Source of the DNA: Arachis hypogaea
Lineage: Eukaryota > Streptophyta > Magnoliopsida > Fabales > Fabaceae
Length of the DNA: 64,000 bases
Direction of reading: 5' to 3'
Assembly (NCBI RefSeq): GCF_003086295.3
Contig: NC_092048.1
Coordinates: forward strand, 68,242,841 to 68,306,840
Under the pieces are notes generated by a model. It made no database searches and was not told the origin of the DNA. It saw nothing but the letters and a program-made list of their open reading frames with translations. Positions 1,010 to 63,426 of the stretch are shown here, one piece after another; within the stretch, counting starts at the first letter, position 1; each line of letters begins with the position of its first letter. The translations under genes and the position numbers were made by a program.

Positions 1010-1056
1010 GTTGGGTTGCCTCCCAACAAGCGCTTCTTTAATGTCAATAGCTTGAC
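1010..1056 (-). promoter_or_regulatory. Post-stop double hairpin of R1
   Basis: About 20 bases after the gag-protease stop (minus strand) comes hairpin 1, GTCA-AGCTAT-TGAC (1043-1056), then an AAAG-AAGCGCTT spacer, then hairpin 2, GTTGGG-AGGCAA-CCCAAC (1010-1027). The same layout is found in R4, R5, R6, R7 and R13. The role is unknown. Confidence 0.7.
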
Positions 1057-1075
1057 AGTGAGCTCTCATGGAGCC

Positions 1076-3373
1076 TCACAGATGTGCAGAGCTTTGTTGA
1101 GACTCTCCAACACCAAACTTAGAGTTTGGATATGGGAGTTCAACACCAAACTTAGAGTTTGGTTGTGGCCTCCCAACACCAAACTTAGAGTTTGACTGTG
1201 GGGGCTCTGGTTGACTCTGCTTGGAGAGAAGCTTTTTCTGCTTCCTCTCCATGGTTGCAGAGGGAGATCCTTGAGTTTTAAACACAAGGGAATCCTCATT
1301 CCATTGAAGGACTATTTCACCTCTGTCAACATCAATCACAGCTCTTGCTGTGGCCAGGAAAGGTCTTCCTAGGATGATGGATTCATCCTCTTTCTTTCCA
1401 GTATCCAGGACTATGAAATCAGCAGGGATGTAAAGGCCCTCAACTTTTACCAATACATCTTCTACGTGTCCATAAGCCTGTCTTCTTGAGCTGTCTGCCA
1501 TCTCTAGTGAGATTTTAGCAGCTTGCACCCCATAGATTCCCAGTTTCTCTATTACAGAGAGGGGCATGAGGTTTATACCTGAACCAAGGTCACACAGAGC
1601 TTTGAAGATCATGGTGCCTATGGTACAAGGTAGTATGAACTTTCCAGGATCCTGTCTCTTCTGAGGTAATGTCAGTTGATCCAGATCACTTAGTTCATTG
1701 ATGAACATGGGAGGTTCAACTTCCCAAGCATCAATGCCAAACAATTTGGCATATAGCTTCATGATTGCACCAAGAAACTTGGCAGTTTGCTCTTCAGTAA
1801 CATCCTCATTCTCTTCAGAAGAGGAATACTCATCAGAGCTCATGAAGGGCATAAGGAGGTTCAATAGGATCTCTATGGTCTCTAGATGAGCCTCAGAGTC
1901 CTTTGGTTCCCCAGAGGGAAGCTCCTTATTGATCACTGGACGTCCCAGGAGGTCTTCCTCCTTGGGATTCACGTCCTCTCCTCTCCTCACAGGTTCGGCC
2001 ATGGCGCTTATGTCAATGGCCTTGCACTCTCCTTTTGGGTTCTCTTCTGTATTGCTTGGGAGAGTACTAGGAGGGATTTCAGTGATCCTTTTACTCAGCT
2101 GGCCCACTTGTGCTTCCAGATTTCTAATGGAAGACTTTGTTTCATTCATGAAACGTACAGTGGCCTTAGATAGATCAGAGACTAGATTTGCTAAATTAGA
2201 AGTATTTTGTTCAGAGTTCTCTGTCTGTTGCTGAGTTGATGATGGAAAAGGTTTGCTATTGCTAAACCTGTTTCTTCCACCATTATTAAAGCCTTGTTGG
2301 GGCTTTTGATCCTTCCATGAGAAATTTGGATGATTTCTCCATGTTGAGTTATAGGTGTTTCCATAAGGTTCACCTAAGTAATTTACCTCTGCTATTGCAG
2401 GGTTCTCAGGATCATAGGCTTCTTCTTCAGAAGATGCCTCTTGAGTACTGTTGGATGCAGCTTACATTCCATGCAGACTCTGAGAGATCATATTGACTTG
2501 CTGAGTCAATATTTTATTCTGAGCCAATATGGCATTCAGAGTATTAATCTCAAGAACTCCCTTCTTCATAGGCGTCCCATTATTCACAGGATTCCTTTCA
2601 GAAGTGTACATGAACTGGTTATTAGCAACCATGTCAATGAGTTCTTGAGCTTCTGCAGGCATTTTCTTTAGGTGAATGGATCCACCTGCAGAAGTGTCCA
2701 GTGACATCTTTGATAGCTCAGATAAACCATCATAGAATATATCCAGGATGGTCCATTCTGAGAGCATGTCAGAAGGACACTTTTTGGTCAACTGTTTGTA
2801 TCTTTCCCAAGCTTCATAGAGGGATTCACCTTCTTTCTGTCTGAAGGTTTGAACATCCGCTCTAAGCTTGCTCAGCTTTTGAGGAGGAAAGTACTTGGCT
2901 AAGAAAGCCCTGACCAGCTTATCCCAAGAGTTCAGGCTGTCTTTGGGGTGAGAATCCAACCATAATCTAGCTCTGTCTCTTACAGCAAAAGGGAAAAGCA
3001 TGAGCCTGTAGACTTCAGGATCTATTCCATTAGTCTTAACAGTATCACATATCTGCAAGAATTCAGTCAAGAACTGAAAAGGATCTTCAGATGGAAGTCC
3101 ATGAAACTTGCAGTTCTGCTGCATCAGAGAAACTAATTGAGGTTTCAGCTCAAAGTTGTTTGCTCCAATGGCAGGAATAGAGATGCTTCTTCCATGTAAA
3201 TTGGAATTAGGTGCAGTAAAGTCACCAAGCATCCTCCTTGCATTATTATTATTTTCGACTGCCATCTCCTCTGCCTGTTCGAAAATTTCTGAAAGGTTAT
3301 CTCTGGATTGTTGTATTTTAGCTTCTCTTAATTTTCTCTTCAGAGTCCTTTCAGGTTCTGGATCTGCTTCCAC
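1076..3373 (-). pseudogene. gag: R1 gag-protease gene, one internal stop, no RT
   Basis: Two open stretches (3373-2462 and 2149-1076) lie in the same frame and are joined by readable coding sequence; the break is a TAA at 2462-2464. The N-terminal half has the retrotransposon gag domain (FELKPQL near residue 75, WLDSHPKDSLNSWD and FPPQKLSKLR further on). The second half has a retropepsin-like domain with CDLGSGINLMP and ILGRPFLATA. The end carries three NSKFGV repeats, 11 codons apart, made by the palindrome CCAAACTTAGAGTTTGG. No ATG opens the frame; it is preceded by another in-frame TAA at 3383. Gag would form the particle; the pol enzymes are absent, not just broken. Confidence 0.85.
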
Positions 3374-5094
3374 AGAGTGTTCTTATCCTTGCTCCTGCTC
3401 ATATGACAAGGAAGAATGGCCAGAAAAATAATGATAATAATAGAGATCCTTTATACCACAGTATAGGGATCCCTGTGTGAGTGGAAGAAGAGGGGGAGAC
3501 AAGGAATGTAATATAATGGAAGAAACACAACTGTGAGGATGGAATGAGGTGAAATGAGATGTTAGGATATGAATGAATAAATAGAATGAGATGGGAGAGG
3601 GATAATTTTCGAAAATTATTTTGAAAAAGGAGTTAGTGATTTTTGAAAATTGGTTTTTGAAAATTTGTTAGTATTTTTTCGAAAATTATGTTTTAAAAAT
3701 TAAAATATTTAATAAATTAAAAAGAAATTTTGAAAAAGGGGAGAGATATTTTCAAAAAATGAGAGAGAGAGAGTTAGTTAAGTGGTTTTGAAAAAGTTAA
3801 GAAACAAACAAAAAGTTAGTTAGTTAGTTGAAACAAATTTTGAAAAGATAAGTAGTTAGGAGGTTAGGAAAGATATTTTGAAAAGATATTTTTGAAAAAG
3901 ATAAGATAAGAAGATATTTTTGAAAAGATATGATTGAAATTAGTTTTGAAAAAGATTTGATTTTTAAAATCACAATTAATGCCTTGATTCATAAGAAATC
4001 ACAAAATATGATTCTAGAACTTAAAGTTTGAATTTTTCTTAACAAGCAAGTAACAAACTTCAAATTTTTGAATCAAAACATTAATTGTTTATGTTATTTT
4101 CGAAAATTATGATATAAAATAAGAAAAAGATTTTTGAAAAATATTTTTAAAATTTTCGAAAATAACTAAGAAATTTGAAAAAGATTTGATTTTTGAAAAA
4201 GATTTTGAAAAAGATAAGATTTTCAAATTGAAAATTTGATTTGACTCATAAGAAACAACTTGATTTTAAAATTTTTTGAAAAAGTCAATCCAAATTTTCG
4301 AATTTGAGGAGAGAAAAAGGGAAAGATATTTTTTTGATTTTTTGAATTTTTATGAAAACATGAAAATTATGCAATGCATGAAATTTTTAGATCAAAACAT
4401 GAATGTATGCAAGAATGCCATGAATGTCAAGATGAACACCAAGAACACTTTAAATGTCAAGATGAACATCAAGAACATATTTTGAAAAATTTTTAATGCA
4501 GAGAAACATGCAAGACACCAAACTTAGAATTCTTTAATGCTTAGACATTGAGAATTCAAGAATGCATATGATAAACATGAAAAGACACAAAACAAAAAAT
4601 CATCAAGATCAAACAAGAAGACTTACCAAGAACAACTTGAAGATCATGAAGAACACCATGAATGCATGAAATTTTCGAAAAATGCAAGATGCACATGCAA
4701 TTGACACCAAACTTATGATATGACTCAATACTCAAACAAGAAACAGAAAAATATTTTTGATTTTTATGATTTTCTGATTTTTTTTTTTTGGATTTTTGTA
4801 TAATTTTTTTGAAAACATTTGGGAAAAAGGAAGTAATGAATTCATAGTCCTCAATCAAAATCCTGGGAATTAGACATGGCTTCATGGCCAGTCAAGCTAA
4901 AACATGTTATATGAAACACTAGAATTCATTCTTAAAATTTTTGAAGAAAAATATATTTTTGAAAACATTTTTTTTTTCGAAAACAAGTGAGAAAATTTTG
5001 AAATATTTTTGAAAATTTTTTTGAAAAGAAAACAAAAAGAAAATTACCTAATCTGAGCAACAAGATGAACCGTCAGTTGTCCAAACCCGAACAA
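3374..5094 (-). other. R1 leader, rich in TTTTCAAAA repeats
   Basis: This 1.7-kb untranslated leader between primer site and gag is AT-rich and full of short copies of TTTTCAAAA and of TTTTCGAAAA variants on the minus strand. It has a GA-rich run near 3765 and several ACACCAAACTTA-type motifs (plus strand, for example near 4516 and 4710). Parts, such as the GAGAGA run followed by GTTAGTTAGTTAG (3765-3850), are closely matched in the R2 leader (11708-11780). I see no gene in it. Confidence 0.7.
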
Positions 5095-5112: not shown

Positions 5113-5118
5113 AAAACT

Positions 5119-6857: not shown

Positions 6858-9800
6858 CTTACCATACACGAGTTGGTATGGAGAGGTCCCTATAGGGGTC
6901 TTGAATGCTGTTCTGTAAGCCCACAAAGCATCATCCAAGCTCCTTGCCCAATCCTTTCTACGGGTATTTACTGTCCGTTCCAGGATTCTCTTTAATTCTC
7001 TGTTAGAGACTTCAGCTTGCCCATTGGTTTGTGGATGATATGGGGTGGCCACTTTGTGGCGAATTCCATACCGAACCATGGCAGAGTAAAGCTGTTTATT
7101 GCAGAAGTGAGTGCCCCCATCACTGATTAACACTCTAGGGACACCAAACCTGCTAAAGATATGTTTCTGGAGGAACTTCAGCACTGTTTTAGTATCATTA
7201 GTGGGAGTGGCAATAGCCTCAACCCATTTTGATACATAGTCAACTGCCACCAGAATATAAGTGTTTGAGTATGATGGTGGGAAAGGTCCCATGAAGTCAA
7301 TTCCCCATACATCAAACAACTCTATTTCCAAGATTCCTTGTTGAGGCATGGCGTAACCATGAGGCAGATTACCAGCTCTTTGGCAACTGTCACAATTACG
7401 TACAAACTCTCGGGAATCTTTATAGAGTGTGGGCCAATAGAAGCCACATTGGAGGACCTTGGTGGCTGTTCGCTCACCTTCGAAATGGCCTCCATATTGA
7501 GATCCATGGCAATGCCATAGGATTCTCTGTGCTTCCTCTCTGGGGACACACCTACGGATGATTCCGTCTGCACATCTCTTAAAGAGATAGGGTTCATCCC
7601 ACAAGTAGTACTTTGCATCAGTAACTAATTTTTTCTTTTGTATTCGATTGTACTCCTTGGGTATGAACCTTGCAGCTTTATAGTTTGCAATATTGGCAAA
7701 CCATGGTGCTTCCTGAATGGCAAATAGGTGCTCATCAGGGAACGTCTCAGAGATCTCAAGAAAGGGGAGGGACGTCCCTTCCACTGGCTCTATCCGGGAC
7801 AGATGATCAGCTACTTGGTTCTCTGTCCCTTTTCTGTCTCTTATTTCTATATCAAACTTTTGCAGGAGCAATACCCATCTAATGAGCCTGGGTTTTGAAT
7901 CCTGCTTTGTGAGTAGATACTTAAGAGCAGCATGGTCAGTGTACACAATCACCTTTGATCCTACTAAGTAGGATCTGAACTTGTCAATGGCGTAAACCAC
8001 TGCAAGTAATTCCTTTTCTGTGGTTGTGTAATTTTTCTGGGCATCATTTAAAACGCGACTGGCATAATAAATGACATGCAGAAGCTTGTCATGCCTCTGT
8101 CCCAATACTGCACCAATGGCATGATCACTGGCATCACACATTAACTCAAATGGCAATGTCCAGTCTGGTGCAGAAATGACTGGTGCTGTGACCAGCTTAG
8201 CTTTCAGCATTTCAAACGCCTGCAGGCATGCTGTGTCAAACACAAATGGCGTGTTAGCAGCTAGCAGGTTGCTCAGAGGTTTTGCGATTTTTGAAAAATC
8301 CTTTATAAACCTCCTATAGAATCCTGCATGCCCCAGAAAGATTCTGATTGCCTTAACATTGGCAGGTGGTGGTAATTTTTCAATTACCTCTATTTTTGCT
8401 TGATCCACCTCTATTCCCTTGTTTGAGATTTTATGCCCAAGAACAATTCCTTCAGTCACCATGAAGTGACACTTTTCCTAGTTTAAAACTAGGTTGGTTT
8501 CTTGGCATCTTTTCAGAACAAGTTTCAAGTGATCAAGACAGGAGCTGAATGAGTCTCCATATACTGAGAAGTCATCCATGAAGACTTCCAGAAATTTTTC
8601 CACCATATCAGAGAAAATAGAGAGCATGCATCTCTGGAAGGTTGCAGGTGCATTGCATAGCCCAAAGGGCATCCTTCTATAAGCAAACACTCCGGATGGA
8701 CATGTGAATGCTGTTTTCTCTTGATCCTGGGGATCTACTACAATCTGGTTGTAGCCTGAATAGCCATCCAAAAAACAGTAATAATCATGACCTGCTAGTC
8801 TCTCTAGCATCTGGTCTATGAATGGTAAAGGAAAATGATCCTTTCTGGTGGTTGTATTGAGCCTTCTGTAGTCAATACACATGCGCCACCCTGTAACTGT
8901 TCTTGTAGGAACCAGTTCATTTTTTTCATTATGAATCACTGTCATGCCTCCCTTTTTTGGGACGACTTGAACAGGGCTCACCCAGGGGCTATCAGAAATG
9001 GGATAAATAATCCCAGCCTCTAGTAATTTGGTGACCTCTTTCTGCACCACTTCCTTCATGGCTGGATTTAGCCGCCTCTGTGGTTGAACCACTGGTTTGG
9101 CATTATCCTCCAGTAGGATTTTGTGCATGCATCTAGCTGGGCTTATGCCCTTAAGGTCACCTATGGACCACCCAAGAGCTGTCTTGTGTGTCCTTAGCAC
9201 TTGAATAAGTGCTTCCTCTTCCTGTGAATTTAAAGCAGAGCTTATGATCACTGGAAAGGTGTCACCTTCTCCTAGAAATGCATATTTCAAGGATGGTGGC
9301 AGTGGCTTGAGCTCGGGTTTAGGAGGTTTTTCCTCTTTCAGAAGAAAGTTCAGAGGCTCTTTCATGTCCCCTGAATCCTCCAAATCAGGCTGAACATCTT
9401 TAAAGATGTCTTCCAACTCTGATTCGAGACTCTCAGCCATGTTGATCTCTTCTACCAAAGAGTCAATAAGATCAACTTTCATGCAGTCTGTTGATGTGTC
9501 TGGATGCTGCATGGCTTTGACAGCGTTCAACTTGAACTCGTCATCGTTGACTCTCAGGGTTATTTCCCCCTGTTGGACGTCAATGAGGGATCGTCCAGTT
9601 GCTAGGAAGGGTCTTCCTAGAATGAGAGTGGCACTCTTGTGCTCCTCCATTTCCAGCACAACAAAGTCAGTGGGAAAGGCGAATGGCCCAACTCTGACAA
9701 TCATGTCCTCAATCACGCCTGATGGGTATTTAGTGGAACCATCAGCAAGTTGGAGACATATCCGGGTTGGTTTAACTTCTTCAATTAAGCCAAGCTTCCT

Positions 9801-11507
9801 GATAGTGGATGCAGGTATTAGGTTGATGCTTGCCCCAAGATCGCATAAAGCTGTCTTGGTGCAATCACCTTCTAATATGCATGGTATCAAAAAACTCCCA
9901 GGGTCTTTAAGCTTTTCAGGAAAGCTTTTCAGAATGACTGCACTGCATTCTTCAGTGAGGAGAACTCTTTCTGTTTCTCTCCACTCCTTTTTATGACTCA
10001 AGATCTCTTTCATGAACTTGGCATAAGAAGGTATTTGCTCAAGTGCCTCTGCAAATGGAATCTTTATTTCAAGAGTCCTTAGATAATCTGCAAAGCGAGC
10101 AAATTGCTTATCCTGCTCCTCTTTCCGGAGTTTTTGAGGATAAGGTATCTTGGCTTTATATTCCTCAACCTTAGTGGTTAAAGAAGCCTTTTTAGAGGGG
10201 TTGTTGTCAGCACTTGTGTGTGTCTGATCCCTCACTGGCAATTGAATGCCAGAGTCAGAAGCTGGAGTGACGTTAGACGCCAGCTCACTGTCTGTTCCTG
10301 GCGCCTGAACGCCAGAAATGTGCCCCTGTTGGGCGTTCAACGCTGGATTATGCCCCATTTGGGCGTTCAACGCCAGATTCTTGCCCATTTCTGGCGTTGA
10401 ACGCCAATCCTGCCTTGTTTCTGGCGCTGAACGCCAGTTTTGGGCATGGTCTGGGCGTTCAGCGCCAGCCTTCCACCCATTTTCTGGCGTTTTAGTGCCA
10501 GAATTATTTTTCCCTGGGCTCTTACTGTCCTCAGGGAAATCTTTGGTGGGTTGCTCATTTCTTGAATTTTTGATGCCTTGAGGTGGGATATTTAATGTTT
10601 TCCCACTTCTTAATTGAACTGCTTGGCATTCTTCTGCTATTTGCTTTGATAGCTGCTGCTTTGTTTGCTTAAACTGTTCTTCCATATGTATATTAGCTAT
10701 CCTTGTCTCCTGTAACCTGTCTTTGAATTCAGCTAGCTGCTTTGTTAGAAAATCTAATTGCTGATTGAATTCAGCAGCTTGTTTTACAGTACTGAATTCA
10801 GCAGTTACTGTTTTAACCTCTTCATTCATGGAAGGGTTGCTGCTTAGATACAGATGCTGATTCCTGGCAACTGTATCAATGAGCTCTTGAGCTTCTTCAA
10901 TTGTCTTTCTCATATGGATAGATCCACCAGCTGAGTAATCTAAAGACATCTGAGCTCCTTCTGCAAGCCCATAGTAGAAGATGTCTAACTGAACCCACTC
11001 TGAAAACATTTCAGAGGGGCATTTTCGTAGCATCTCTCTGTATCTCTCCCAGGCATCATAAAGAGATTCATTATCTCCTTGTTTAAAGCCTTGGATGTCC
11101 AGCCTTAGCTGTGTCATCCTTTTTGGAGGGAAATATTGATTCAGGAATTTTTCTGTCAGCTGTTTCCATGTTCTTATGCTGGCCTTAGGTTGGTTATTTA
11201 ACCACCTCTTAGCTTGATCTTTTACAGCAAATGGAAACAGTAATAGTCTGTAGACATCCTGATCTATTTCCTTATCATGTACTGTGTCAGCAATTTGTAA
11301 AAATTGTGCCAGAAACTCTGTAGGTTCTTCCTGTGGAAGACCGGAATACTGGCAACTTTGCTGCACCATGATAATGAGCTGAGGATTCAACTCAAAGCTA
11401 CTAACTCCAATGGAGGGTATGCATATGCTACTCCCATACGAAGCAGTAGAGGGGTTAGAATATGACCCCAAAGTCCTCCTGGACTGTCCATCTCCACTTA
11501 TGTCCAT
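6858..11507 (-). pseudogene. gag-pol: R2 gag-pol polyprotein, one amber stop, 3' end lost to R1 insertion
   Basis: One frame of 1550 codons starts at an ATG (11505-11507). It has one internal stop, TAG at 8478-8480, where related copies have Trp (NLVLN-x-EKCHF). Order: gag domain (about residues 35-200), a repeat-coded stretch (340-415), retropepsin-like domain (CDLGASINLIP near 552, ILGRPFLATG), RT (YRRLN, MPFGLCNAPATFQR, FMDDFSVYGDS near 977), RNase H ([28 protein letters not shown]), integrase zinc motif ([18 protein letters not shown]) and integrase catalytic core ([25 protein letters not shown]). The frame ends at LVYGK, where the R1 LTR supplies the TGA. The integrase C-terminal part is therefore missing from this side. 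Confidence 0.92.
10270..10500 (-). repeat. Palindrome array translated inside R2 gag-pol
   Basis: Seven copies of the GGCGTTCAACGCC-type palindrome, 30-32 bases apart, lie between gag and protease in the open frame. Because the spacing is not always a multiple of three, the motif is read in three frames (as GAERP, RSAPE and ALNAQ) and is open in each. The same motif is non-coding in R1. Confidence 0.85.
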
Positions 11508-16321: not shown

Positions 16322-16371
16322 GGTGGGGTGTCTCCCACCTAGCACTTTTGTTTATTGTCCTTAAGTTGGAC
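16322..16371 (-). promoter_or_regulatory. Post-stop double hairpin of R4
   Basis: On the minus strand hairpin 1 is GTCC-AACTTAA-GGAC (16357-16371) and hairpin 2 is GGTGGG-AGACAC-CCCACC (16322-16339). It begins 16 bases after the ORF stop at 16388. Confidence 0.75.
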
Positions 16372-16387: not shown

Positions 16388-17977
16388 TCAAGGTGGCTTG
16401 TGCTTGAAGCTATCCTTGAACATCCACCAATGCTTGAGTCTCCAATAAGCTCCATTCTTCAATGTTAATATCTTTAAGCTTTGATGGAGTTCTTCACAAA
16501 CCATGAGCTCCCAAAGTTGATTTTCCTTGTGCGATCCAGGATCCCACACTTTGTTTTGACACCCATCTTCAAATTGATCATCATGATTCCAATTGGGTGG
16601 CATGACCTTAGAATTCTCAATTGAGCACCCAAATATTCTCCTAGACCCATGCCATTTGGGTTTACACTAACCATTGTAATCAAACTTTGAGCATGCAACC
16701 ATGATGAACTTAGAGTGATGTTTTCAACCACTACACAACTCTCTCCTACTCTTAGTTCCACAAAGAGCTCTAAGTTGACCATCATTTTCAATCAAACCAT
16801 ATTCAAGTGAGAAAGTGAAGCTTAGGGATAGAAATTTTACCCACTTGAATGTTTTGTAGGATGGTGACTTAGGAAGGGGTGGTCCCAATGATCTTGCAAG
16901 CTCCACTCCCTTGTGCTTTTCCTTGACTATCTCCACCTCTTTACAACTTTCCTCAACTTTAACCTCTTCCTTTTGGTGGCTTGCTTCCACTTCAATTTCT
17001 TCTTCATTGCTCACCAAAGGCATGAGAGGTTGTGCATCTTCTTCTTTGATCTCCATGGCAAACCCAATTGGAGAGAATTCAATTGTACATAAGAATTCTT
17101 CAATGATTGAATCCATCTCTTGGTCAACCTCTTCGAAGGCTTCAACCACTTCTTCCGGCTCAATTATCTTAACTTCCTCCTCTTATTGCACTCCTTGCTT
17201 CAACTCCTCTTCTTCACCTTGAAGCTCTAAATTCACTCCCTCACTAGGCTCCTTAATTGCTTCTCCACATTCGTCAATGGGAGTGCCTTGGTTGCTTAGG
17301 CTTAGTCGGGAGGAGGCCATATTACTAACGGCTTCCACTAGAATAACCATATTGGCTCCTAGCTCTTTAAACTTCTTTTCATCCTCCTCTTGTTGCCTTA
17401 AGATATGAGATTCAAGATCTCTCAATTCCAACATGGAGGCTTCGTCGGAGGGTGGTGGTGGAAGAGAGGGTTCATTGTTTGGGAAGGGAGTTTCATAATT
17501 GGAAGTTGGTTCATCTTGGTAAGGGTATGGAGATGGTGTATATTGAGGTGGTTCTTGATAGTAGTTGTGTTGGAATTGTTGTGGTTCCATGTATGGTTCA
17601 TATGGTTCATAAGGTGGTTGGTATGGTGCATATGGGTTGGGGTCATATGGAGGTGTTTGGTGAAAAGGGGCTTGTGAGTAAGGTGGTGCAAAATTATGTT
17701 GAGGAGGTAGTTCATAGGCATATGGTGGTGGTTGTTGACAATCACAATAAGGGTCACCACATCCATTAGATTGATATGCATTAGGATGAAAGTTATACCC
17801 ATAAGAATTTGGAGGGGGTTGTTGCCAAGAAGGGTGATCAATCCTTTGAGGCTCCTCCCACCTTTGATTGTTCCATCCTTGATGCATATCCTCATTGTAG
17901 CTCCCATTTTCTACAACATAATTTAAGCCAAACTCATAGCCAAAGTGATGAGAATTTATAATAGCAACTGAAAACAA
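16388..17977 (-). pseudogene. R4 ORF of unknown function (Pro/Tyr-rich, then acidic), broken
   Basis: Three open stretches lie in one frame, split by stops at 17183-17185 (TAA) and 16724-16726. The first stretch is rich in P, Y and Q (for example PPYEPYEPYMEPQQ), then helical and acidic. The second is acidic and ends with LRALCGTKSRRELCSG. The third has a WNHDDQFEDGCQNKVWD block and ends KHWWMFKDSFKHKPP. The ORF in R5 matches the last two blocks, so this is a conserved retrotransposon protein. I recognise no gag, protease or pol motif. It occupies the gag position and may be a replacement structural protein; that is a guess. Confidence 0.65.
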
Positions 17978-23760: not shown

Positions 23761-23807
23761 GTTGGGTTACCTCCCAACAAGTGCTCTTTTAGTGTCATTA
23801 GCTTGAC
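23761..23807 (-). promoter_or_regulatory. Post-stop double hairpin of R6
   Basis: On the minus strand hairpin 1 is GTCA-AGCTAA-TGAC (23794-23807) and hairpin 2 is GTTGGG-AGGTAA-CCCAAC (23761-23778). The ORF stop TAA (23798-23800) falls in the loop and closing stem of hairpin 1. Confidence 0.72.
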
Positions 23808-27097: not shown

Positions 27098-27115
27098 TGG
27101 CGCCGTTGCCGGGGA
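27098..27115 (+). other. R7 primer-binding site (tRNA-Asp)
   Basis: TGGCGCCGTTGCCGGGGA stands 6 bases after the LTR end. A short leader of about 170 bases follows before gag. Confidence 0.92.
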
Positions 27116-30167: not shown

Positions 30168-30214
30168 GTCAAGCTAATGACAATAAAAGAGCGCTCCATG
30201 GGAGGCAACCCATG
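30168..30214 (+). promoter_or_regulatory. Post-stop double hairpin of R7
   Basis: Hairpin 1 is GTCA-AGCTAA-TGAC (30168-30181); hairpin 2 is CATGGG-AGGCAA-CCCATG (30197-30214). It starts 14 bases after the gag stop. The stem of hairpin 2 differs from those of R1 and R6 on both sides. Confidence 0.78.
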
Positions 30215-31337
30215 CTTTAAGATTCATGTCATTTTAAATTCAATAAGTTATGATCAACTGAGCATGAATTCTTTTCTCTTTTCATGAACATGTCCATTAA
30301 CTGCATGCACTATTTTGAAACATATGCTAAGTTTGGTGTGCCTTCAAGCACACTAAACCAATGTTACAAATAATTCCATTTTGCATGCTTGGAGTATCTT
30401 GACAAAGCATATGGCCGAACACTAAGTTTGGTGTCCACATAGCTTCATGAAAAGTAGAAACTCATGCATCAATAATCATACAATTGTTGTTTTTCAAAAT
30501 CTTATAAATGAAAAAATTCTTTTCCGGTAATGAAGGCATTAATTGTGATGTACCCTTTGACAAGAAACAAGTTTGGTGTTCATCAAACCTTGATGCACCG
30601 ATTTAGGGATACAATTGATACTTCATGAAAAAAAAAAAGAGAAAAAGAAAGTATGATGAAAACAATTCTTATGAACATTTAACATTTGAATCTCACTAAT
30701 TGGAGGAAGATACTCATTTTCTTTATATATGACCAAACATTAAGTTTGGTGTCTTCAAGGGAGAGTGTCACGGTTCAAATGATATAAGAATTGTTGGTTC
30801 ACATAGTATTAATAAAAAGAACACTCTTGCTACGGTTGGATAAGACTAATGTATGTTGTCTTGTTGTGGTGACTAGGAGGTCAAAGAATCTTCAAAGAAA
30901 AAGACAAGACAAAGGAAAGCATAGCATGAAGACAAAATCCCATCACATGCCTCAAAAAAGAAATCTGCCACTCCTTGAGAATGATCACGGCAAAGGCAAG
31001 GGAAGGAGCAAACTTTGTCTTCATTCATCCTTACATGCATACCTTTGATCTCCATAAGTCTAATTGCATCCCAACCCTTCATTGCTCATTTAAAAGCATA
31101 CCACCTTCAAGCCATGCACATGACCGAATCACTCCAACCTTGTAAACTTCACTCCCTTCATCACTCCTCAACATAACAAGCTTTGTGCAACATTTCTCTT
31201 ACTTTAAACTCCAACCACTTAAACTTCTCTTCATCATTTCTTGTCATAAGCAATTCCGGTCTCAATTTCTTTTTGCTCCAAACACACATCAAACTCTCCA
31301 ACATTCTTCACACTCCTTCTCAACCAACCAAGTGACC
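30215..31337 (+). other. R7 spacer between the two genes
   Basis: No gene is seen. Four copies of (C/T)AAGTTTGGTGT stand near 30328, 30423, 30568 and 30743; the same motif stands directly before the 3' LTR. Confidence 0.65.
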
Positions 31338-32859
31338 ATGGCCTCCTCCTCAAGAACCAAACGAAGAAAAGGAAAAGATCCCATAGTGGAGGAAGACACA
31401 CATGAATATGACCAACGGAGATTCAAGTCTTGGTTTCATCAAATGCAAATTCAATGGATGAACGAGAAAAGAATCTATCCTGAAATTCCATTCTTGTTGC
31501 CGGATGATGGATGTCAAGAAATGAAGGGCAAAATTTGGAAGAGGAGGTGGGAGGAACTTGCATCACCAGCCACCCGAATCAATGCCAATATCGTAAGAGA
31601 GTTCTATGCAAATGTCCCAAGGCTTGACATGCGTGAGCCCCCAACGTACAAGAGCTATGTGCGGGGGGTGGAAGTAGACTTTGGCCCGGATGCAATCAAG
31701 AAAGTCTTGAAACTAAAGTCAGTCCGCTTTGATGAACCGGGATACCAACAAAGATTGAATGAGGATCAGGATTATGAGGAGATTGCGAGAGACATTTGTT
31801 TTGAGAACTCAGAGTGGGAAGGAGATAACAAGAACAGATACAAGTTCCTGAAGAGATGTAACCTCACTCCGGAAGCAAAAGGATGGTATGAGTTGATGAA
31901 AAGATCAATTCTGGGCACAGTGAACACCTCAGAAGTTAACAGGGAGAGAGCCGTGATGCTGCATTGCATCATTGTGGGAGGAGAGATAAGAGTTCATGAA
32001 ATCCTTGCAAAAGACATTCAAAAGCTAGAATTCGGCCGGATCTTGGTTGTACTATCCGAGTACCATTTGGAGGTTGTGTGCAAAGGCTAAAGTTCCAATG
32101 GAAGAGGAAAATCCAATGTGGTTAAGCCAAGGCATGCCCATAACCATTGAACGAATGATGATGCCCCTTGAAGCACATCAAGGCCGAAGACCACATGGAG
32201 GAAGGGAAAGAGAAGAACCAATGGAAGAAGATGAGCCACACATAGAAGAAGAACCACAAGAGGAGGAGGAACAGCCGCACTTTTTCCCACATGGCAATAT
32301 GGATATGACTCAAATGCAAGAAGCAATAGGAAGATTGTCTCAACAGTACACGAGAATCCAAGAAAGGCAAGAGGAATACCATTCTCTGTACATGAAAAAC
32401 CAACAAGCACAAGAAGAAAGGGAGCTAAGAATAATGAACAAACAAAGTGAATTCGAGTCAAGATTCCTTGTGATGCAAGAAGAACATGCCTTTCAATCTC
32501 ATGAATCTTTTGGGAAGTTGGAACAAATGCAAGCTGAAAATTTGAGGGCTCTCAAAGAGTTCACAACACTCCAAGATGCAAGGTATGAAGTGCAAGCCGA
32601 TTACAACATCAATAGCCAAATCAAACTGAACTATATTGGAGAACATTTGCACAACATGGATCCTGCTTTCCCAACTTTTGATGAATTCTTCAAAAAGAGA
32701 AGTGAGGTAGAAGTAAGCAGGGCTATGAGACTTGAAGATAGAGTGGAGGAGGCTATGAATAAGGCTGGCTTTTGGCAAGGTCAACAGGCACCAAACAAGG
32801 ATGGTGGGAACACTAGCAGCCAAGTGTATGAAAGGAGAAAGAAAAGGCATGACAAATGA
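31338..32859 (+). pseudogene. R7 second gene, resembling the plant 'putative transposon protein' domain, with one frameshift
   Basis: The start ATG at 31338 has a good context (ACCATGG). The first 250 codons begin with a basic segment (SSSRTKRRKGKD) and hold a globular part (FKSWFHQMQIQW, REFYANVP, YVRGVEVDF, LTPEAKGWYELMKRSI, ERAVMLHCIIVGGEI). The frame then shifts near 32040-32050, where the other frame reads LYYPSTIWRLC, and stays open to 32859. The second part is acidic (EEEPQEEEEQP), then a long helical, coiled-coil-like segment. From memory it resembles the plant-specific domain often labelled putative plant transposon protein (Pfam Transposase_32-like). The function is unknown; it is not a transposase with visible catalytic residues. 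Confidence 0.65.
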
Positions 32860-35804: not shown

Positions 35805-37695
35805 TCAAGCAACTTTAGTGGGTGATTAGTTTAGTCAAGCTAACGTTGAGTGATTTGAGTGACAATTGAAGCAGCAGAAAGTAAATGACAAGAAATTATA
35901 AATTGCAGAAAGTAAATTGGACAGAAAATTAAAGAGCAAGAAATGTAAATTGCAAGAATATTAAATGACAAGAAATATAAATTGCATGAAATATAAAGGG
36001 GAATGGGTGCTGGAAATGTAAAATTCAACAGGAACGTGTAAATAGCAATCAAACAGAGAAGTAAAAGATGCAAAATCATGCAACAGATCTAACAGAAGAG
36101 TAAAATGCCTTGAAGAATTTTAAGACAGAAAAGCAATGCTTAATTTGCAGCAAAGTAAAAGAGGTTGAAGATCTCAAGAGTGGAAGAGACTAGAAAACAA
36201 GTCTAGATCTCAAATCCTTCCTTGATCCAACAAGAACAATTGAAGAATAAAGACAAATTGAAGCAGTAAGAGAACTTTGATTCAAATTGCAATTCACTGA
36301 AATTATGCAGCAAGGCAAACAATGGGAAATATCAGAGGGAGAATGAAACAGAACTCCTTCAATTCTCCACCCAAGATTCAAAAACAAAGAAAAAAAAACT
36401 AAAGAGAGAGAGCTCTCTAATGCTAATGCTCCCTAGTGGAGCCAACCTCCTTTCTAATCGAGCTCCCTTTTGAAAATGAGAGTGATGCCTTTATATAGGC
36501 TTTTTACAAAATAAAATAAAATTGAAATGAAAAACAAATTAAATGAAAATCCTAATTCTAGCTTGTTCTTGTGCCTTTGAGTGATGATGTGGGCTTTGCT
36601 TGCTTTGGATCTGAGGAGAAATGGGTTTGGTTGGCCTTGATTCAATTTGGAGAAGAATTGAATTTAAATGGAATTTTTATTCAATTTTTGGTCCATGGGT
36701 GTTGCTCCCAGGGGAAAGCTCAGTTGGAAAACCCAACTTAGCTTTCAAGTTGTGTTGTCCGCTTCATTTGATGCGCGTCCAGCCTTGGTTGTGTGCCAAA
36801 ATTGTGCGCCAAAGTTCCTTGGTGCCTTGGGTCCATGTCAATTTGTGGGGGAGAAGGGGGGAGATAGTGTTCAGTTGGAAAAACCAACTTAGCTTTCCTT
36901 TGTGGTGCCTAGCTTTGCACTCCAAGGTCCCAGGTTCAACTCTTGGTGGAAGCAAATGAGAATTTATTTTCCTTGGAGGAGTGGAGAGTGAGGAGTGCTT
37001 GTACAAGGAAGCTCCAGGTTCGAACCTTGGGAGAGCCATCTTGGCTCATTTTCCTTTCAAGAGTAGCGCTCCTTCCTTGCAAGTGAGAGGCTCCCACTTC
37101 GAATCTTGGTGAAGCCACTTTGGTCTATTTTTGCTTGTTTTTGGCCCTTAAAGATTCCTTTCACTTGTGCCTCAATTTCATGCCAAATATGGACTATTAT
37201 ATATCGTTGGAAAGCTCTGAATGTCAGCTTTCCAATGCAATTAGAATCACATTAATTGGACGTCTGTAGCTCAAGTTATAGCCCTTTGAAGGAGGTATGG
37301 TCATGCTGTAAACGCCCAAGTTTTAACTTAGCGAAAATTCTTGCTTCCAAGCCAAGTTTTTCACGATAAAGCTAAGTTCACTTAGTGAACTGAGCTTTGT
37401 GATGCTGATTGTGAAACTTCCTTGATTTGGTCATGGGCCACGCTTTTAAAAGCGTGGCCTAAGGCTCCAAAGTGTGCTCCAACTTCAAAGTGTGCCCCAA
37501 AGCTCTTTTTTTCTCCTTTTTAGCTTATTTTGTGCTTCTTTGCTTCTTTTTCTTCTTATTTCCTACCAAATTTATAAAATTAAAAGATCAAGGAAATATA
37601 CCATTTAAGCATAAAAGAATGCAATATTTAAGCACTAATTATCAATTTCATGTATGAAAAAGCATAGAAAGAGGTGACATGATGACATGTCATCA
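35805..37695 (-). repeat. R6 5' LTR, part 2
   Basis: It continues the R6 LTR after R7 (with the target copy ATGGA at 35800-35804) and ends at 37695; its minus-strand start is TGATGACATGTCATC. The same palindrome (37436-37459) and hairpin module (about 37205-37240) as in the left LTR are present. Confidence 0.93.
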
Positions 37696-38370
37696 GTAGA
37701 CTTCACTCAACCTCCTATCTATGATGAGATTGATGGGGAAGAGATAGAAGAATTTGGTGAAGAAGAATGTGAACTTGAGGAAGCTTGGCAAGAGGTAGAG
37801 CTTGAAGAACCTTGCCAAGTGGTGGACGCCTCTAGAAGAGGATGGACGGGAGTAGAGTGCGCATTGTCAAGATCATTGGGAACTCTTCCACCTAGGTTGT
37901 TATCTAATTCTTCATTTGAGTGGGTAAAACTTCTAACTCTTAGCTTTATTATCCCACTTGAATTTGGTTTGCTTGAGACAGATGGCGAACTTAGGGCGCT
38001 TTACGGAATTAAGCGTAAAAGGAGGATGTTTAGTGGTTGGCGTTGTAAGTCTAGACTCATTATGGTTGAAGCTTCAAGGAGCAAAGGTTAGACTAGTGCT
38101 CAATTGGATGGGTCTAGGAGGATAGTTTGGTGCTTCCATGAGAATTCATCTCTCTTGCCACCCGGAGGAAATCACCATGATCAACTCAAGGACGGGTGTG
38201 AAAACAAAGTGTGGGATCTCGGATCGCACAAGGAAGATCAACTTTGGGAGTCTATGGTTTGTGGAGAACTCCATCAAAGCTTGGAGTTATTAACTCTGAT
38301 TGACGAAGCACAATGGAAGTCCAAGCATTGGTGGATGTTCAAGGATGGATTCAAGCACAAGCTACCTTGA
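37696..38370 (+). pseudogene. R5 ORF, 3' part, one internal stop
   Basis: The frame continues from 19975 after R6. It is acidic (EEIEEFGEEECELEEAWQEVE), then LGTLPPRLLSN, SFEWVKLL and LRALYGIKRKRRMFSGW. A TAG at 38089-38091 breaks it, and the rest (LPPGGNHHDQLKDGCENKVWD, KHWWMFKDGFKHKLP) runs to a TGA at 38368. The same blocks are found in R4. The protein is unknown; no enzyme motif is visible. 37696-37700 is the GTAGA copy made by R6. Confidence 0.75.
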
Positions 38371-38387
38371 TGAGGAGCTCCCCATAA

Positions 38388-38437
38388 GTCCAACTTAAGG
38401 ACAATAAACAAAAGTGCTAGGTGGGAGACAACCCACC
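38388..38437 (+). promoter_or_regulatory. Post-stop double hairpin of R5
   Basis: Hairpin 1 is GTCC-AACTTAA-GGAC (38388-38402); hairpin 2 is GGTGGG-AGACAA-CCCACC (38420-38437). It starts 17 bases after the ORF stop. Confidence 0.78.
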
Positions 38438-44035: not shown

Positions 44036-47000
44036 GTGCTGAGGAAAGCTTTTTCTTCAGAGTTTCAAAAGCTAGCATGCAATTCTGATCAAATACAAAA
44101 GGTGTATCAGAGACAAGTAGGTTACTAAAAGGTTTGGCTATTTTTGAAAAATCTCTGATAAACCTTCTATAAAATCCAGCATGTCCTAAGAAACTCCTAA
44201 TTGCCTTCACATTACTAGGTGGAGGTAATTTCTCAATTAATTCCACCTTAACTCTGTCTACCTCATGCCTTGGTTAGAGACCTTATGACCAAGAACTATT
44301 CCTTCTGTCACCATAAAATGGCATTTCTCCCAATTCAAAACCATATTGGTTTCTTGGCATCTTTTCAGTACCAAGGCCAGGTGATTTAGGAAATTAGGGA
44401 AAGAATCCCCAAATACTAAAAAGTCGTCCATAAAGACTTCAATAAATTTTTCAATCATGTCTGAAAAGATAGATAACATGCAGCGTTGGAAGGTTGCAGG
44501 CGCATTGCACAGCCCAAATGGCATGCCCCTGTAAGCAAAGACTCCATATGGACAAGTGAATGATGTTTTCTCCTGGTCTCTTGGATCAACCACTATTTGA
44601 TTGTATCCTGAATAGCCATCCAAAAAGTAATAATATGCATGTCCTGCAAGCTGTTCTAGCATCTGGTCCATGAAAGGAAGTGGGAAGTGATCTTTTCTTG
44701 TAGCTTCATTGAGCTTTCTATAATCAATGCACATCCTCCATCCTGTGATAGTTTTTGTAGGGATCAGTTCATTCTTTTTATTGGGCACTACAGTGATGTC
44801 TCCCTTCTTAGGAACCACTTGGACAGGGCTCACCCATGGGCTATCTGAAATTGGGTAGATTATCCCTACCTGCCAAAGCTTCATAATCTCTTTTTGCACC
44901 ACTTCTTTCATGACTGGATTCAATCTTCTTTGGGCTTGAATGGAGGGTTTAGCATCTTCTTCCAACAGGATTTTATGCATGCATATGGATGAGCTTATTC
45001 CTTTCAAATCAGCAAGGGTCCATCCAATGGCATCTTGATGCTTTTGTAACACCTTGATTAACTCCTCTTCCTGTTCTTGGCTAAGAGCAGAATTGATGAT
45101 CACTGGGTAACTTCCATCACTTCCCAAGTATGCATACTTGAGGGTAGGAGGCAATGCTTTCAGTTCAAGTTTGGGTGCTTCTTTCTCTTTTTTCTTCTCC
45201 TCTGATGTGCTTGGAATGGGCACTTCAGCTGATTTGACATCAACAGCATCAACAATTAACGTGGAATCATCTTCTGTCACTTCTTCAAGTGCTTCTTCAA
45301 AGGTTTCTTGCACCACAATTTCCACTGCATCCAACCTCATACATTCTCCTAGTGACTCCTGTGGGTAGCTCATGGCCTTGAACACATTAAATACCATTTT
45401 CTCATCATGTAGCCTAAGGATAAGTTCACCCTTTTGGACATCAATGATGGCTCCAGCAGTAGCTAAAAATGGCCTTCCCAAAATTATTGAAGTCTTAGCT
45501 TCTTCCTCCATATCTAACACCACAAAGTCAGCCAGGAAGATGAAGTCTCCCACCTTTACCAACAAATCCTCTACAACTCCATGAGGGAATTTGAATGATC
45601 TGTCTGCCAATTGGAGGGCCATTCTTGTTGGTTTGGCTTCCACAATCTTTATTCGTTTCATCATTGCTACAGACATCGAATTTATGTTGGCTCCCAAATC
45701 ATATAAGGCTTTCTCCATAATGATTTCTCCTATGATGCAAGGAATTTGGAAGCTCCCTGGGTCCTTCAATTTTTGAAGCAGTTTGTGTTGGATGATAGCA
45801 CTACATTCTTTAGTCAGCACCACAGTTTCATCATTCCTCCAGCTTCTCTTCTTGGTCATTAATTCCTTAAAAAATTTAGCATAGAGCGGCATTTGCTCTA
45901 ATGCTTCAGCAAAAGGGATGTTGATCTGAAGTTTCTTAAAAATCTCCAAGAATTAGGAGAATTGGCCGTCCTTTGCATTCTTCATTAGGCGCTGAGGGTA
46001 AGGAGCTTTAGGGACATATGGCCTTAGGACTTCCTTCTCTTAAGGTGGATTGGGAGCCTGTGCTTGTGCTTCTTCCTTGTCACTTGAACTCCCCTCTGCT
46101 TCCTCATCTTGAGTTTCCTTTGAGGTTTCTTTAAGTTCTTTTCTACTTCTGAGAGTGATAGCTTTGCATTCCACTCTCGAAGTTGTCTTAGTGGCATTAC
46201 AAGAACTATGGCCAGGGGCTTGCTTAGACAAGTATCCAATTCGTGCTTCAAGTTTCTGAATGGCAGCATCTTAATTTTGCAGATTGGATCTCACCTCCTC
46301 CTTGAAATTTTTCATGGCTTGAGAATCCTTGCATAGGTTGGTGAGCATAGCTTCAATCCTAGATAGTTTGTCCTCTGATGGTGGAGTTGGAATTGGATGT
46401 TGAGGCTGATTGGCTTGGGCTTGATATGGTGGATGAGAAGAATTGTTGTATGGGTGTTGATATGATCTTGGATTGGATTGTTGGTATGTGTACTGGTTAG
46501 GATTACGAGGTTTCTGATCTTGGCCTTGGTTTTGTTGGTTTTCCCACCCAAAGTTTGGGTGGTTCCTCTAACCGAGGTTATAGGTTTTAGAATATGGATA
46601 ATGAGCTTGCCTATATGAATTTCCAAGGCAATTAGCTTCCTCCCAGTTAACTCCTTCCTCTGTGTCCAACTCTCCTGAAGGTGATGGTTGAGTATGAATG
46701 GCTGTGGCCTAATTCTTCTCTATTTGCTTGGTTAAATCAGCCAGTTGCTTGGTGATCATCTTATTTTAGGCCAGGATTGCATCCATATGGTTTAATTCCT
46801 TGACTCCCCTGTTGTTGCTTTTGTCTGAGACATAAAAATCCTCATTGTCAGCCACTATTTTTATGACATCAATGGCTTCTTCAATGGTCTTCTTCTTGTT
46901 AAGGGAGCCTCCAGATGAGTGGTCTACAACCCTTTTTGATTCATAGGAAAGCCCTTCATAAAAGATATACAATTGCACCCACTCATTAAACATCTCAAGT

Positions 47001-47640
47001 GGAGATTTCCTTGTCAGATCTTTGAATCTCTCCCAGGCTTCATACAAGGTTTCACCATCCTACTGTCCGAATGTCTGCACCTCAGTTCTCAGTCTATTCA
47101 CTCTCTGAGGAGGGTAGAACCTTGCTAAGAATCTATTCACCATATCCTCCCAAGTTGTCAAGCTTTCTTTGGGAAATGATTCTAGCCATTTGGTTGCTTT
47201 GTCCCTCAAAGAGAATGGAAACAATAGCAACTTATAGGTGTCAGGATGAACACCATTAGATTTAACTGTATCACAAATCCTTAGGAATGTAGTGAGATGC
47301 TGATCAGGGTCTTCTTGGGCACTTCCTCTGAAAGAACAATTGTTTTGGACAAGAGTGATGAGCTGAGGCTTCAATTCGAAGTTATTAGCATAGATGGTTG
47401 GCTTTTGAATGCTGCTACCATAGTTTCCTGGATTTGGATTGATGTAGGAGCCTAGAACTCTCATCTCTTATCCAGCAAGGTTGGCTGCACCTCCTCTGGC
47501 ATGATTGTTCACCTCTCCTTCATGATGGTTTTCCATATCATCCACCATGTTTATATCCAAGTCTTCCTCCTCTTCTTCTGTACCAATAGCCTTCTTTCCT
47601 CTTGCTTTCTTTCTGATTCACTGTCAAAAGAGGTAGCAAC
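44036..47640 (-). pseudogene. gag-pol: R9 gag-protease-RT pseudogene
   Basis: From about 47640 down, one frame carries gag (FELKPQLITLVQNNCSF, WLESFPKESLTTWED, FYPPQRVNRLR), protease (YDLGANINSMS, ILGRPFLATA) and RT (YRKLN, MPFGLCNAPATFQR, FMDDFLVFGDS). Premature stops lie at 47468, 47060, 46766, 46709, 46568, 46271, 46040 and 45953 (lowest base of each). Most fit one transition in a Gln or Trp codon. A one-base loss near 44263 shifts the frame at the start of the linker after RT (LGHKVSNQG); the next frame reads [27 protein letters not shown]. The RNase H and integrase parts are beyond the R8 insertion, outside the window. Confidence 0.88.
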
Positions 47641-60700: not shown

Positions 60701-63365
60701 GAATCCCACCATCTTAGAAGTTGTCAAGAAAGAAGTGACCAGGCTACTTGAAGCAGATATCATTTACCCCATTTCAGATAGTGAGTGGGTCAGTCTAGTA
60801 CAAGTGGTGCCCAAGAAGTCTGGAGTCACAACAATAAAGAATGAGCATGGAGAGCTCCTGACAACTAGAGTGCAGAATTTATGGAGAGTTTGCATTGACT
60901 ATAGGCGTCTCAACCAAGCCACTCGCAAGGATCGTTACCCCTTGCCATTCATTGATCAGATTCTTGATCGCCTGTCAGGTAAATCCCATTATTACTTTTT
61001 AGATGGTTATACAGGCTACTTTCAAATTCATATAGCTCCTGAAGATCAGGAGAAGACTACTTTTACATGTCCCTTTGGAACGTATGCATACAAAAGGATG
61101 CCCTTTGGTTTATGTAATGCACCGGCTACTTTCCAAAGATGCATGATGAGCATCTTTTCAGATCTTATTGAGAACTGTATGGAAGTTTTTATGGATGATT
61201 TTAGCATATATGGTGATTCATTTAGCCTTTGCTTGGATAGTTTATCTAGAGTATTAGACAGGTGTATTATTACAAACCTTGTATTGAATTTTGAAAAATG
61301 TCACTTTATGGTAAAACAAGGAATTGTACTAGGACACATTGTATCTAATACTGGTATTTCTATAGATCCAGCAAAGGTAGATGTCATTTCTAGTTTACCT
61401 TACCCTTCCTCTGTGAGGGAAGTCCGTTCGTTCCTTGGCCACGCAGGTTTTTTACAGGAGATTCATTAAGGACTTCAGTAAGGTAGCGTTACCTTTATCC
61501 AGATTGCTGCAGAAAGATATTGAGTTTGAGTTCAGTGAGGATTGCATGCAAGCATTTGATAAGCTGAAGATCGCCCTGACTCAAGCTCCGATTGTGAGAA
61601 GACCAGACTGGAGCCAGCCATTTGAAATTATCTGTGATGCCTCCAACCATGCAGTAGGAGCGGCGGTGGCTCAGCACGAAGGTAATGATCCTTTTGTAAT
61701 TGCTTATGTGTCTAAAACTTTAGACGCTGCTCAGTCTAATTACACTACTACTGAAAAAGAGCTTCTAGCTAATTTTTTGCTATGGATAAATTCTGAGCCT
61801 ATTTACTTGGTACTAAGGTGGTAGTGTACTCAGATCATGCAACTCTAAAATATTTATTAGCTAAAAAAGAGTCCAAACCAAGGCTAATACGTTGGATATT
61901 GCTGCTACAAGAATTTGATTTAGAAATTAAGGATAGGAGTGGTAACCAGTATTTAGTGGCAAACTACCTGAGTCGCGTTAAGCACATTAAGGATGACTCC
62001 ACTCCTATCAATGATACTTTCCCATTTGATAACTTGTATGCAGTGTCTGAGGTAGTTCCTTGGTATGCACCTGTAGCTAATTATCTAGTTAGCCACACTT
62101 TCCCTCCAAATTTTACTAAGCATCAAAGAGACAAGCTGAAAAGCGAGTATAAATATTATATATGGGATGATCCATATTTATGGAGGTGTGGTGCTGACCA
62201 GGTAATTAGACGATGTGTACCACAATCAGAATTCCAGTCTATTTCAGAGGCCTGCCACTCATCTGAGAGTGGAGGACATTTTAGCCCGCAAAGAACAGCT
62301 AGAAAAATCTTAGACTGTGGATTCTGGTGGCCTACTCTTTTTAAAGATGCTGCTGAATTTTGTAAATCTTGTTCCCCATGCCAAAGGTTTGGTAATATAT
62401 CCAAGAGGGATGAGATGCCTCAACAGATTATGCTTTTCTGTGAAATTTTTTATGTTTGGGGCATTGACTTCATGGGTCCATTCCCAAACTCTAATGGGTA
62501 CCTTTATATATTGTTAGCTGTAGATTATGTTTCTAAATGGGTAGAAGCAATTCCTACCCGTACTGATGATGCTAACGATGTTGTTTCCTTTGTTAGAAAC
62601 TATATTATTTGTCGCTTTGGATCACCACGAGCAATCGTGAGTGATCAAGGCACTCACTTTTGTAATAGGAGACTGACAGGATTACTGAAAAAGCATGGAA
62701 TTATTCATAAAGTAGCAATAGCTTATCATCCCCAGACCAATGGACAAGAAGAAGTGCCTAACAGGGAGATTAAACGTATTCTGGAGAAGATAGTGAAGCC
62801 TCATAGGAAGGACTAGTGTGCCAGGCTACAAGATGCACTCTGGGCATATAGAACAGCATACAAGACACCCATTGGGATGAGCCCCTTCCGTTTAGTGTAC
62901 GAAAAAGCTTGACACCTTCCAGTGGAGGTGGAACACAAGGCTTTCTGGGCTGTGAGGGAGTGCAATATGAATTTTGAAGAAGCTAGTGCTGAAAGGAAGC
63001 TGCAACTAGCAGAATTGGAGAATCTTCGCCTAGAAGCATATGACAACTCCAGGCGATACAAAGAAATGATGAAGGCTGTCCATGACAAGCACATAAAAAG
63101 GAGAGAATTCAGACCAGGGGAGTTAGTTCTTCTTTACAACTCCAGGCTGAGGCTCATGCCAGGTAAACTGAGATCAAGATGGGAAGGTCCATACAGAGTA
63201 GAAAAGGCAGAGCCAAACGGAGTTTTCCACTTGCGTAATCCTTCTAGCTCCAAATTCATTAAGGCCAATGGACATTGCCTAAAGCTTTATCATGGAGAGA
63301 AGATGAAGGATCACAAAGAACTAGAGGTTTTCCTCTTGGAAGATCTACCAACAAAAGCAGAATGA
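57790..63365 (+). pseudogene. gag-pol: R13 gag-pol pseudogene, full length
   Basis: From ATG 57790: gag (FELKTALINLMPKFHG, YFTQGMKPQDKTTLDGAS), N/Q-rich repeats (NYNQGW), protease (CDLRACVSIIP, ILLGRPFLKT), RT (YRRLNQATRKD, MPFGLCNAPATFQR, FMDDFSIYGDS), RNase H ([28 protein letters not shown]), integrase zinc motif ([15 protein letters not shown]), catalytic core ([26 protein letters not shown]) and C-terminal domain (GELVLLYNSRL). Breaks: stops at 58288, 58441, 58969, 59113, 62814 and 62911; frameshifts near 60688 (C run one short), 61450 (T run one long) and 61765-61800. Four of the six stops are in Trp positions. Several breaks lie at homopolymers. Confidence 0.9.
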
Positions 63366-63374
63366 GCCTAAAGA

Positions 63375-63426
63375 ACGTCCAACTTAAGGACGTAAAAGCA
63401 AAGTGCTAGGTAGGAGACAACCCACC
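63375..63426 (+). promoter_or_regulatory. Post-stop double hairpin of R13
   Basis: Hairpin 1 is ACGTCC-AACTTAA-GGACGT (63375-63393, 6 bp); hairpin 2 is GGTAGG-AGACAA-CCCACC (63409-63426, one mismatch). It starts 9 bases after the gag-pol stop. Confidence 0.75.

Follow-up and report, generated by a model that had tools for sequence, protein, structure and literature searches.

The two-hairpin module and the retrotransposon ORFs it follows

The 64,000-nt window analyzed here (Arachis hypogaea contig NC_092048.1, positions 68,242,841 to 68,306,840) contained six copies of a two-hairpin module, which lay at the ends of unrelated open reading frames (ORFs) of long terminal repeat (LTR) retrotransposons and was very probably a selected RNA element (Table 1). 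All six, in the elements designated R1, R4, R5, R6, R7, and R13, were found where the initial annotation had placed them and with the stems it had described. In sense order, each displayed a conserved block of 47–52 nt composed of hairpin 1 (GTCN–loop–NGAC), an A-rich linker containing TAAA (TAAAA in R13) and AGYRCT, and hairpin 2 (six pairs around an AGRYAM loop). The stems were qualified at two points: hairpin 2 of R13 had one A.C mismatch, and the L025-type family, found outside the window, had its fourth hairpin-1 pair broken, leaving three pairs. When the core was scanned along both strands of the window, the six copies scored 19–20 of 20 positions and everything else scored at most 15. 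Energy folding recovered the two hairpins in five of the six copies, R13 keeping hairpin 1 only; the shuffle z-scores ran from -1.1 (R7) to -4.2 (R5), and because they reached only -1.1 in R7, folding energy alone was not decisive for every copy. No Rfam covariance model matched at any of the six modules (E up to 1).

Table 1. Modules, ORFs, and primer binding sites located in the window
Feature	Coordinates	Strand	Remarks
R1 module	1010..1056	-	GTCA..TGAC, linker, GTTGGG-AGGCAA-CCCAAC
R4 module	16322..16371	-	GTCC..GGAC, GGTGGG-AGACAC-CCCACC; ends in CCACC, then ATGGTA
R6 module	23761..23807	-	ORF stop TAA within hairpin-1 loop
R7 module	30168..30214	+	GTCA..TGAC, CATGGG-AGGCAA-CCCATG
R5 module	38388..38437	+	GTCC..GGAC, GGTGGG-AGACAA-CCCACC
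R13 module	63375..63426	+	ACGTCC..GGACGT; hairpin 2 GGTAGG/CCCACC
R1 gag-pro 3' ORF	1076..2149	-	aspartyl protease Pfam match under cut-off; reverse transcriptase (RT)/integrase absent
R7 gag-pro ORF, 963 aa	27262..30153	+	protease by similarity to 8478-11507 ORF; RT/integrase absent
R13 C-terminal integrase tail	62922..63365	+	assigned from its place after integrase and from relatives at other loci; own Pfam match none
R6 ORF, 247 aa	23798..24541	-	member of a large family; ends ..NNMSS* within hairpin 1
PF20167 (Transposase_32) sense ORF	31185..32090	+	971 nt past R7 module
tRNA-Asp-type primer binding site, R7 element	27098..27115	+
Further tRNA-Asp-type primer sites	57669(+), 49481(+), 47905(-), 25060(-), 18105(-), 12527(-), 5112(-)

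The gap between stop codon and hairpin 1 was 19 nt in R1, 14 nt in R7, 16 nt in R4, 17 nt in R5, and 18 nt in locus L026, and the R13 ORF ended 9 nt ahead of ACGTCC; these gaps of 9–19 nt, together with the overlapping stop of R6, agreed with the earlier statement that the module starts 9–20 bases past the stop in five elements and overlaps it in the sixth. A survey of module position was applied to 41 entries (35 loci plus the six window copies), with stops placed by an automatic rule. This rule put the stop 11–34 nt ahead of hairpin 1 in 29 of the 41 entries and inside hairpin 1 in R6, halted at an earlier frame (72–296 nt) for eight R4-type entries, and returned no output for L012, L017, and R13. 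In the families with a placeable stop, a hairpin began about 9–19 nt past it; three R1-type loci (L020, L022, and L024) departed from this, with gaps of 27 and 34 nt. The stop itself varied (TAA, TGA, or TAG).

The ORFs ending at the module were of several kinds: an integrase tail, gag-pro, an ORF with an HWW..KHK.P motif, and the R6 ORF. The R4-type entries shared the tail HWW...D..KHK.P, followed in R4, R5, and L026 by a stop just before hairpin 1. Because gag-pro tails such as F.VRG...Y look, by eye, like integrase tails, some of these stops were probably inherited from pol and are not independent. The module had been described as lying at a gag or gag-pol stop, which held for the gag-pol end of R13; in R1 and R7 it followed gag-pro lacking RT and integrase, in R4 and R5 another ORF, and in R6 yet another. 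Its attachment to the ends of unrelated ORF kinds upheld the view that it is not a coding signal.

The order gag–protease–RT–RNase H–integrase was found in the element 11507-6855(-) and in R13, while the R4, R5, and R6 ORFs displayed no detectable gag-pol similarity; the sense PF20167 ORF occupied an env-like position. Among named relatives of the gag ORFs, the best were from Arachis. The eight tRNA-Asp-type primer sites in the window had 0–2 mismatches to an 18-nt tRNA-Asp query, and a tRNA-Asp primer is described for Diaspora and Calypso in the available text of PMC1142308. Judged by primer sites and ORF content, the carriers would be tRNA-Asp-primed, Athila-like Ty3/gypsy elements, both autonomous and parasitic.

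The R6 ORF belonged to a family with 73–100% identity among 150 scored matches (of 12,535 candidates), about 90 of which appeared by eye to have no internal stop. Twenty C-terminal ends, none with an internal stop, were chosen from these 150 matches for their range of identity and fetched; 18 of them continued into the module, their TAA stop falling within the loop of hairpin 1 and hairpin 2 beginning 19 nt past it.

Several further features were observed beside these elements. An unnamed ORF family of non-autonomous elements, with the HWW..KHK.P tail just before the module, was represented at 16724-17977 (-), at 37687-38437 (+), and in L026. An antisense frame past the R13 module, 63500-63904 (-), had antisense relatives at 37–48% identity in L016, L017, and L026 and matched no Pfam family (E up to 1); there was thus no sign of TRP28, and a Retand lineage for R13 was rejected. 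Near-palindromes like GGCGTTTAAACGCC recurred past modules of the R1 type and at other places in the window (732, 854, 10362, and 43587). Rfam snoR71 gave two matches over its gathering score within gag regions (46988-47095 and 2766-2869) and weaker ones at 27854, 50370, and 58381, which may reflect no more than a fortuitous resemblance of a conserved part of gag.

Copy number, conservation, and base pairing

Genome-wide counts were made on both strands of the host assembly (2.557 Gb, 440 contigs), with the reversed pattern as control. The core AGYRCTNNNNGGGAGRYAACCC had 34,774 + 34,669 = 69,443 exact matches (control 0), the hairpin-1/linker pattern 29,959 + 29,881 = 59,840 (control 0), and the R4-type pattern 8,312 + 8,237 (control 9 + 8). 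Among 30 loci selected by hairpin 1 and linker alone, 24 of which also belonged to the set L009–L038, the hairpin-2 segment was present in all 30 and kept at least five of its six pairs in 29. Module copies were near-regularly spaced in two places, at about 5 kb in C2:43192646-43227402 and at 6.66 kb in C1:16541501-16554851, which suggests tandem arrays of elements.

Sequence divergence was lowest within the module. Among 18 of the 20 fetched R6-type ends (the other two had no module), the per-pair difference was 0.0095 in the module, 0.0776 in the adjoining 73 nt of coding sequence, and 0.171 in the next 50 nt, that is, 8- to 18-fold lower in the module than in the two flanks; R4 and R5 were 98% identical in the module and 81–82% identical in their flanks. 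Such conservation beyond the surrounding DNA, where measured, suggests a control element.

Covariation was analyzed on a tree of 59 distinct modules, with columns simulated 60 times under an equal number of changes; these were 59 of 63 rows, the excluded ones being L004, L012, L035 (a spurious match within integrase, shared by L128), and L112. The top two column pairs fell one in each hairpin: the hairpin-1 flank pair 1-18 (p 0.0009) and the hairpin-2 pair 38-53 (TA/CG/GC/AT; p 0.0028). The covariation proposed in the initial annotation was borne out to that extent, but neither pair stayed significant once every column pair was corrected for (E 1.3 and 4.0). When the multiplier was the 13 structure pairs tabulated, the p values became 0.012 (1-18) and 0.037 (38-53), for a structure first seen in six of these same sequences. 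Standard pairing was found in 38 of 59 rows at 1-18 and in 47 of 59 at the fourth hairpin-1 pair (5-14). Single-pair covariation support was moderate.

Pairing as a whole was compared with tree-based simulations. Hairpin 2 was paired in 96.3% of cells versus 69.0% in the simulations, with 0/1000 simulations reaching the observed level, and hairpin 1 in 86.4% versus 62.9%, with 4/1000 reaching it; the three inner hairpin-2 pairs say little here, because L009–L098 had been selected by a pattern fixing GGG and CCC. Extra standard pair types were not unusually numerous in hairpin 1 (763/1000 simulations reached the observed number) and marginally so in hairpin 2 (59/1000). Strong conservation, pairing above the tree-based null, and attachment to unrelated ORF ends together favored the selected structure that the initial annotation had put forward.

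A natural deletion was available for comparison. The two R6-type ends without a module, L144 and L148, lacked it in the fetched stretch and shared one junction, which had 341 + 375 = 716 genome copies with at most three mismatches (control 0). Of these, 85 were exact, with 84 on C1–C10, one on C145, and none on C11–C20, while the other 631 were mostly not listed by place. We infer that this lineage lost the module, which would not be primitively absent, and spread in one ancestral subgenome, which it could mark. The module-bearing R6 counterpart pattern had 939 + 1,021 matches (control 0), and the ratio between the two is rough because the patterns differ in sequence and place.

Outside the host genome, a 23-nt module pattern applied to bacterial and archaeal genomes had a single match, in a contig labelled Candidatus Burkholderia humilis (L129, LFMX01000071.1). 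Because a tnp2-type (CACTA) transposase and a gag-protease ORF lie on this contig, it was taken for DNA of the host plant, presumably Psychotria. The copy holds GTCAGGCTGGTGAC and AGCGCTTCTTGGGAGGCAACCC and begins 15 nt past a stop; since the ORF ending there matched no window ORF query and had no good Pfam match (best E 0.077), this stop may mean nothing. The module pattern had 0 matches in a viral contig collection, and a protein scan yielded no relative. A peptide search with post-stop translations returned 12 short ENA proteins, and the three examined resembled the L025-type frame of the host genome, so no cross-species gain followed; in these searches, L129 was the one copy outside the host.

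Candidate functions of the module

The reading favored here, with a probability of about one in three, is that the module would act as a stop-proximal RNA element stabilizing long-tailed genomic RNA, in the manner of the RNA stability element (RSE) of Rous sarcoma virus (RSV). Ribosomes reading the full-length RNA would stop at the module with a long tail ahead (3.7 kb before the 3' LTR in R7, 1.8 kb in R6); the hairpins and a U-rich stretch would anchor a protein–RNA complex at the ribosome's edge as it terminates; and the complex would shield the genomic RNA from nonsense-mediated decay (NMD), so that the RNA would persist as genome and mRNA. The 60 nt past the module had a T content of 59% in R1-type (n=47), 57% in R4-type (n=13 distinct), 56% in CCGTCA-type (n=6), 52% in other (n=12), and 40% in L025-type copies (n=20), compared with 19–28% upstream of the module and 31% in the window; this U-rich flank was not conserved in sequence.

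Several points weigh against a stabilizing role: (i) in R6, the terminating ribosome would cover hairpin 1; (ii) the L025-type family, a pol family, combines the low downstream T content with a three-pair hairpin 1; (iii) at its 47–52 nt, the module is far under the minimal RSE of 155 nt, as given in the available text on that element; (iv) in turnip crinkle virus (TCV), a stable hairpin near the coat-protein stop abolished decay resistance, the opposite of what is proposed here (PMC6277124, in the text available); (v) in L017, integrase similarity extends to the module and no preceding stop was found, so that this copy does not fit; (vi) hairpin 1 of L012 was unrecognized by the stop-placing rule; (vii) in L129, hairpin 1 was not the lowest-energy fold (z +0.6) and hairpin 2 had a mismatch; and (viii) because 716 module-less copies exist, the module is useful but not strictly required in the R6 parasite. 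A wider proposal is more tentative: the module might represent a flowering-plant-wide family of post-termination RNAs, equivalent in plants to the retroviral stability element, common to autonomous endogenous-retrovirus-like elements and protein-unrelated parasites, and sometimes shed by lineages escaping its cost or their dependence on it.

The leading alternative, a possible one although the odds are against it, is a signal for packaging, trafficking, or nuclear export of full-length RNA. Its site just beyond the translated region would spare it from unfolding by ribosomes, and parasites would keep it for carriage by autonomous partners. Retention of the module in R4, R5, and R6, whose ORFs show no Gag-Pol similarity, and the tRNA-Asp-type primer sites near R4 and R6 are in line with such carriage, for which BARE2, unable to make Gag and packaged into BARE1 particles, gives a precedent (PMC3735527). 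The 716-copy module-less lineage spread all the same, however, and the potentially dimerizing palindrome AGCGCT is replaced by AGCACT in 17 of the 18 R6-type copies that have the module and by AGTGCT in R4, R5, and R13; dimerization through this palindrome was rejected on that account. Pairing of the hairpin-2 loop GGCAAC with primer-site GUUGCC was likewise discarded, as it would comprise only 6 bp and could not form where R4 and R13 have AGACAA/AGACAC loops; among five window elements, the longest exact module–leader complements were 6–9 nt, with no common site.

A part in a splice acceptor for a spliced mRNA of the downstream PF20167 ORF, the hairpins restraining splicing to keep enough RNA unspliced, looks unlikely. 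A pyrimidine tract followed by YAG/G was found in 41/47 R1-type, 6/20 L025-type, and 4/12 other copies (2.2, 0.5, and 0.2, respectively, expected from shuffles), at least 20 of the 41 entries had sense PF20167 similarity beginning about 0.8–1.3 kb downstream, and splicing is reported for barley Bagy2 in the available part of PMC7264820. The same site was found in 0/13 R4-type and 0/6 CCGTCA-type copies (shuffles 0.8 and 0.1), so that the acceptor is specific to families, unlike the module; moreover, the R1-type copies, being related, do not count as independent. Under a looser YAG rule, the counts were 43/47 R1-type, 8/20 L025-type, 7/12 other, 2/13 R4-type, and 5/6 CCGTCA-type, with 10.7% in random window stretches.

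That the module is a relic by descent, spread by hitch-hiking and now without function, seems very improbable: one lineage tolerates its loss, but the 8- to 18-fold reduction in divergence in the R6 family and the pairing above the tree null speak otherwise. Termination–reinitiation or internal entry for the downstream ORF is more doubtful still; UGGGA is kept in the hairpin-2 5' arm of most copies and is also present in the termination-upstream ribosome binding sites of caliciviruses, but the PF20167 ORF is about 0.8–1.3 kb distant, and the ATG behind the R4, R5, and R13 modules opens, by eye, no long frame. Least likely of all is stimulation of stop-codon readthrough or recoding, for which the hairpin lies 9–19 nt past the stop and the frame behind it stays open for 24–67 codons in 20 of 33 entries (R1-type, L025-type, and L010), but which is excluded as a general function, if not in single families, by frames shut within 0–8 codons in the other 13 (L009, L016, L024, R7, R6, R13, and seven R4-type) and is at odds with the varying stops and the R6 stop inside hairpin 1. 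As for the action on translation end suggested in the initial annotation, the frames closed in these 13 entries and the placement of the R6 stop speak against readthrough or an effect on termination at one fixed distance.

Comparison with known systems

To our knowledge, there has been little mapping of cis-acting RNA structures in the LTR retrotransposons of plants. A literature search found no description of the module, with its motif strings only in unrelated context, and an earlier description in older papers on the lineage is possible. Plant LTR retrotransposons form much of large plant genomes, and a 50-nt module that has about 70,000 copies in one crop genome and is linked to the stops of unrelated genes offers a handle on the translation, stability, splicing, or packaging of such RNAs.

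Four systems were compared, each as far as the available text of the cited papers goes. Sireviruses carry conserved non-coding polypurine tract (PPT) repeats and inverted repeats, one of the latter at the gag/pol boundary (PMC2829016); like the present elements, they are divergent LTR retrotransposons of plants in which short non-coding blocks are conserved, but they are Ty1/copia, their blocks occupy other positions, and no two-hairpin module is described in that text. The splice acceptors of Athila and Bagy2 fall in the same region, past pol and ahead of the env-like ORF (PMC2829016 and PMC7264820), but are splice sites instead of a hairpin pair, and the acceptor-like sites found here are family-specific. 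In TCV, a readthrough structure and an unstructured region just past stops confer NMD resistance in plants (PMC6277124); the likeness is an RNA feature just past a stop in plants, whereas the peanut module consists of stable hairpins, with no open frame behind it in the 13 entries noted above. The RSV RSE is located directly past the gag stop, works irrespective of stop identity, is pyrimidine-rich, needs at least 155 nt, and acts via PTBP1 sites (PMC2925335 and PMC4764554). Compared by description, it differs from the peanut module, which joins conserved hairpins to an unconserved U-rich flank; the two resemble each other in lying directly past a gag stop (a likeness of position only, the module being found behind non-gag ORFs too), in tolerating varied stops, and in having U-rich sequence near.

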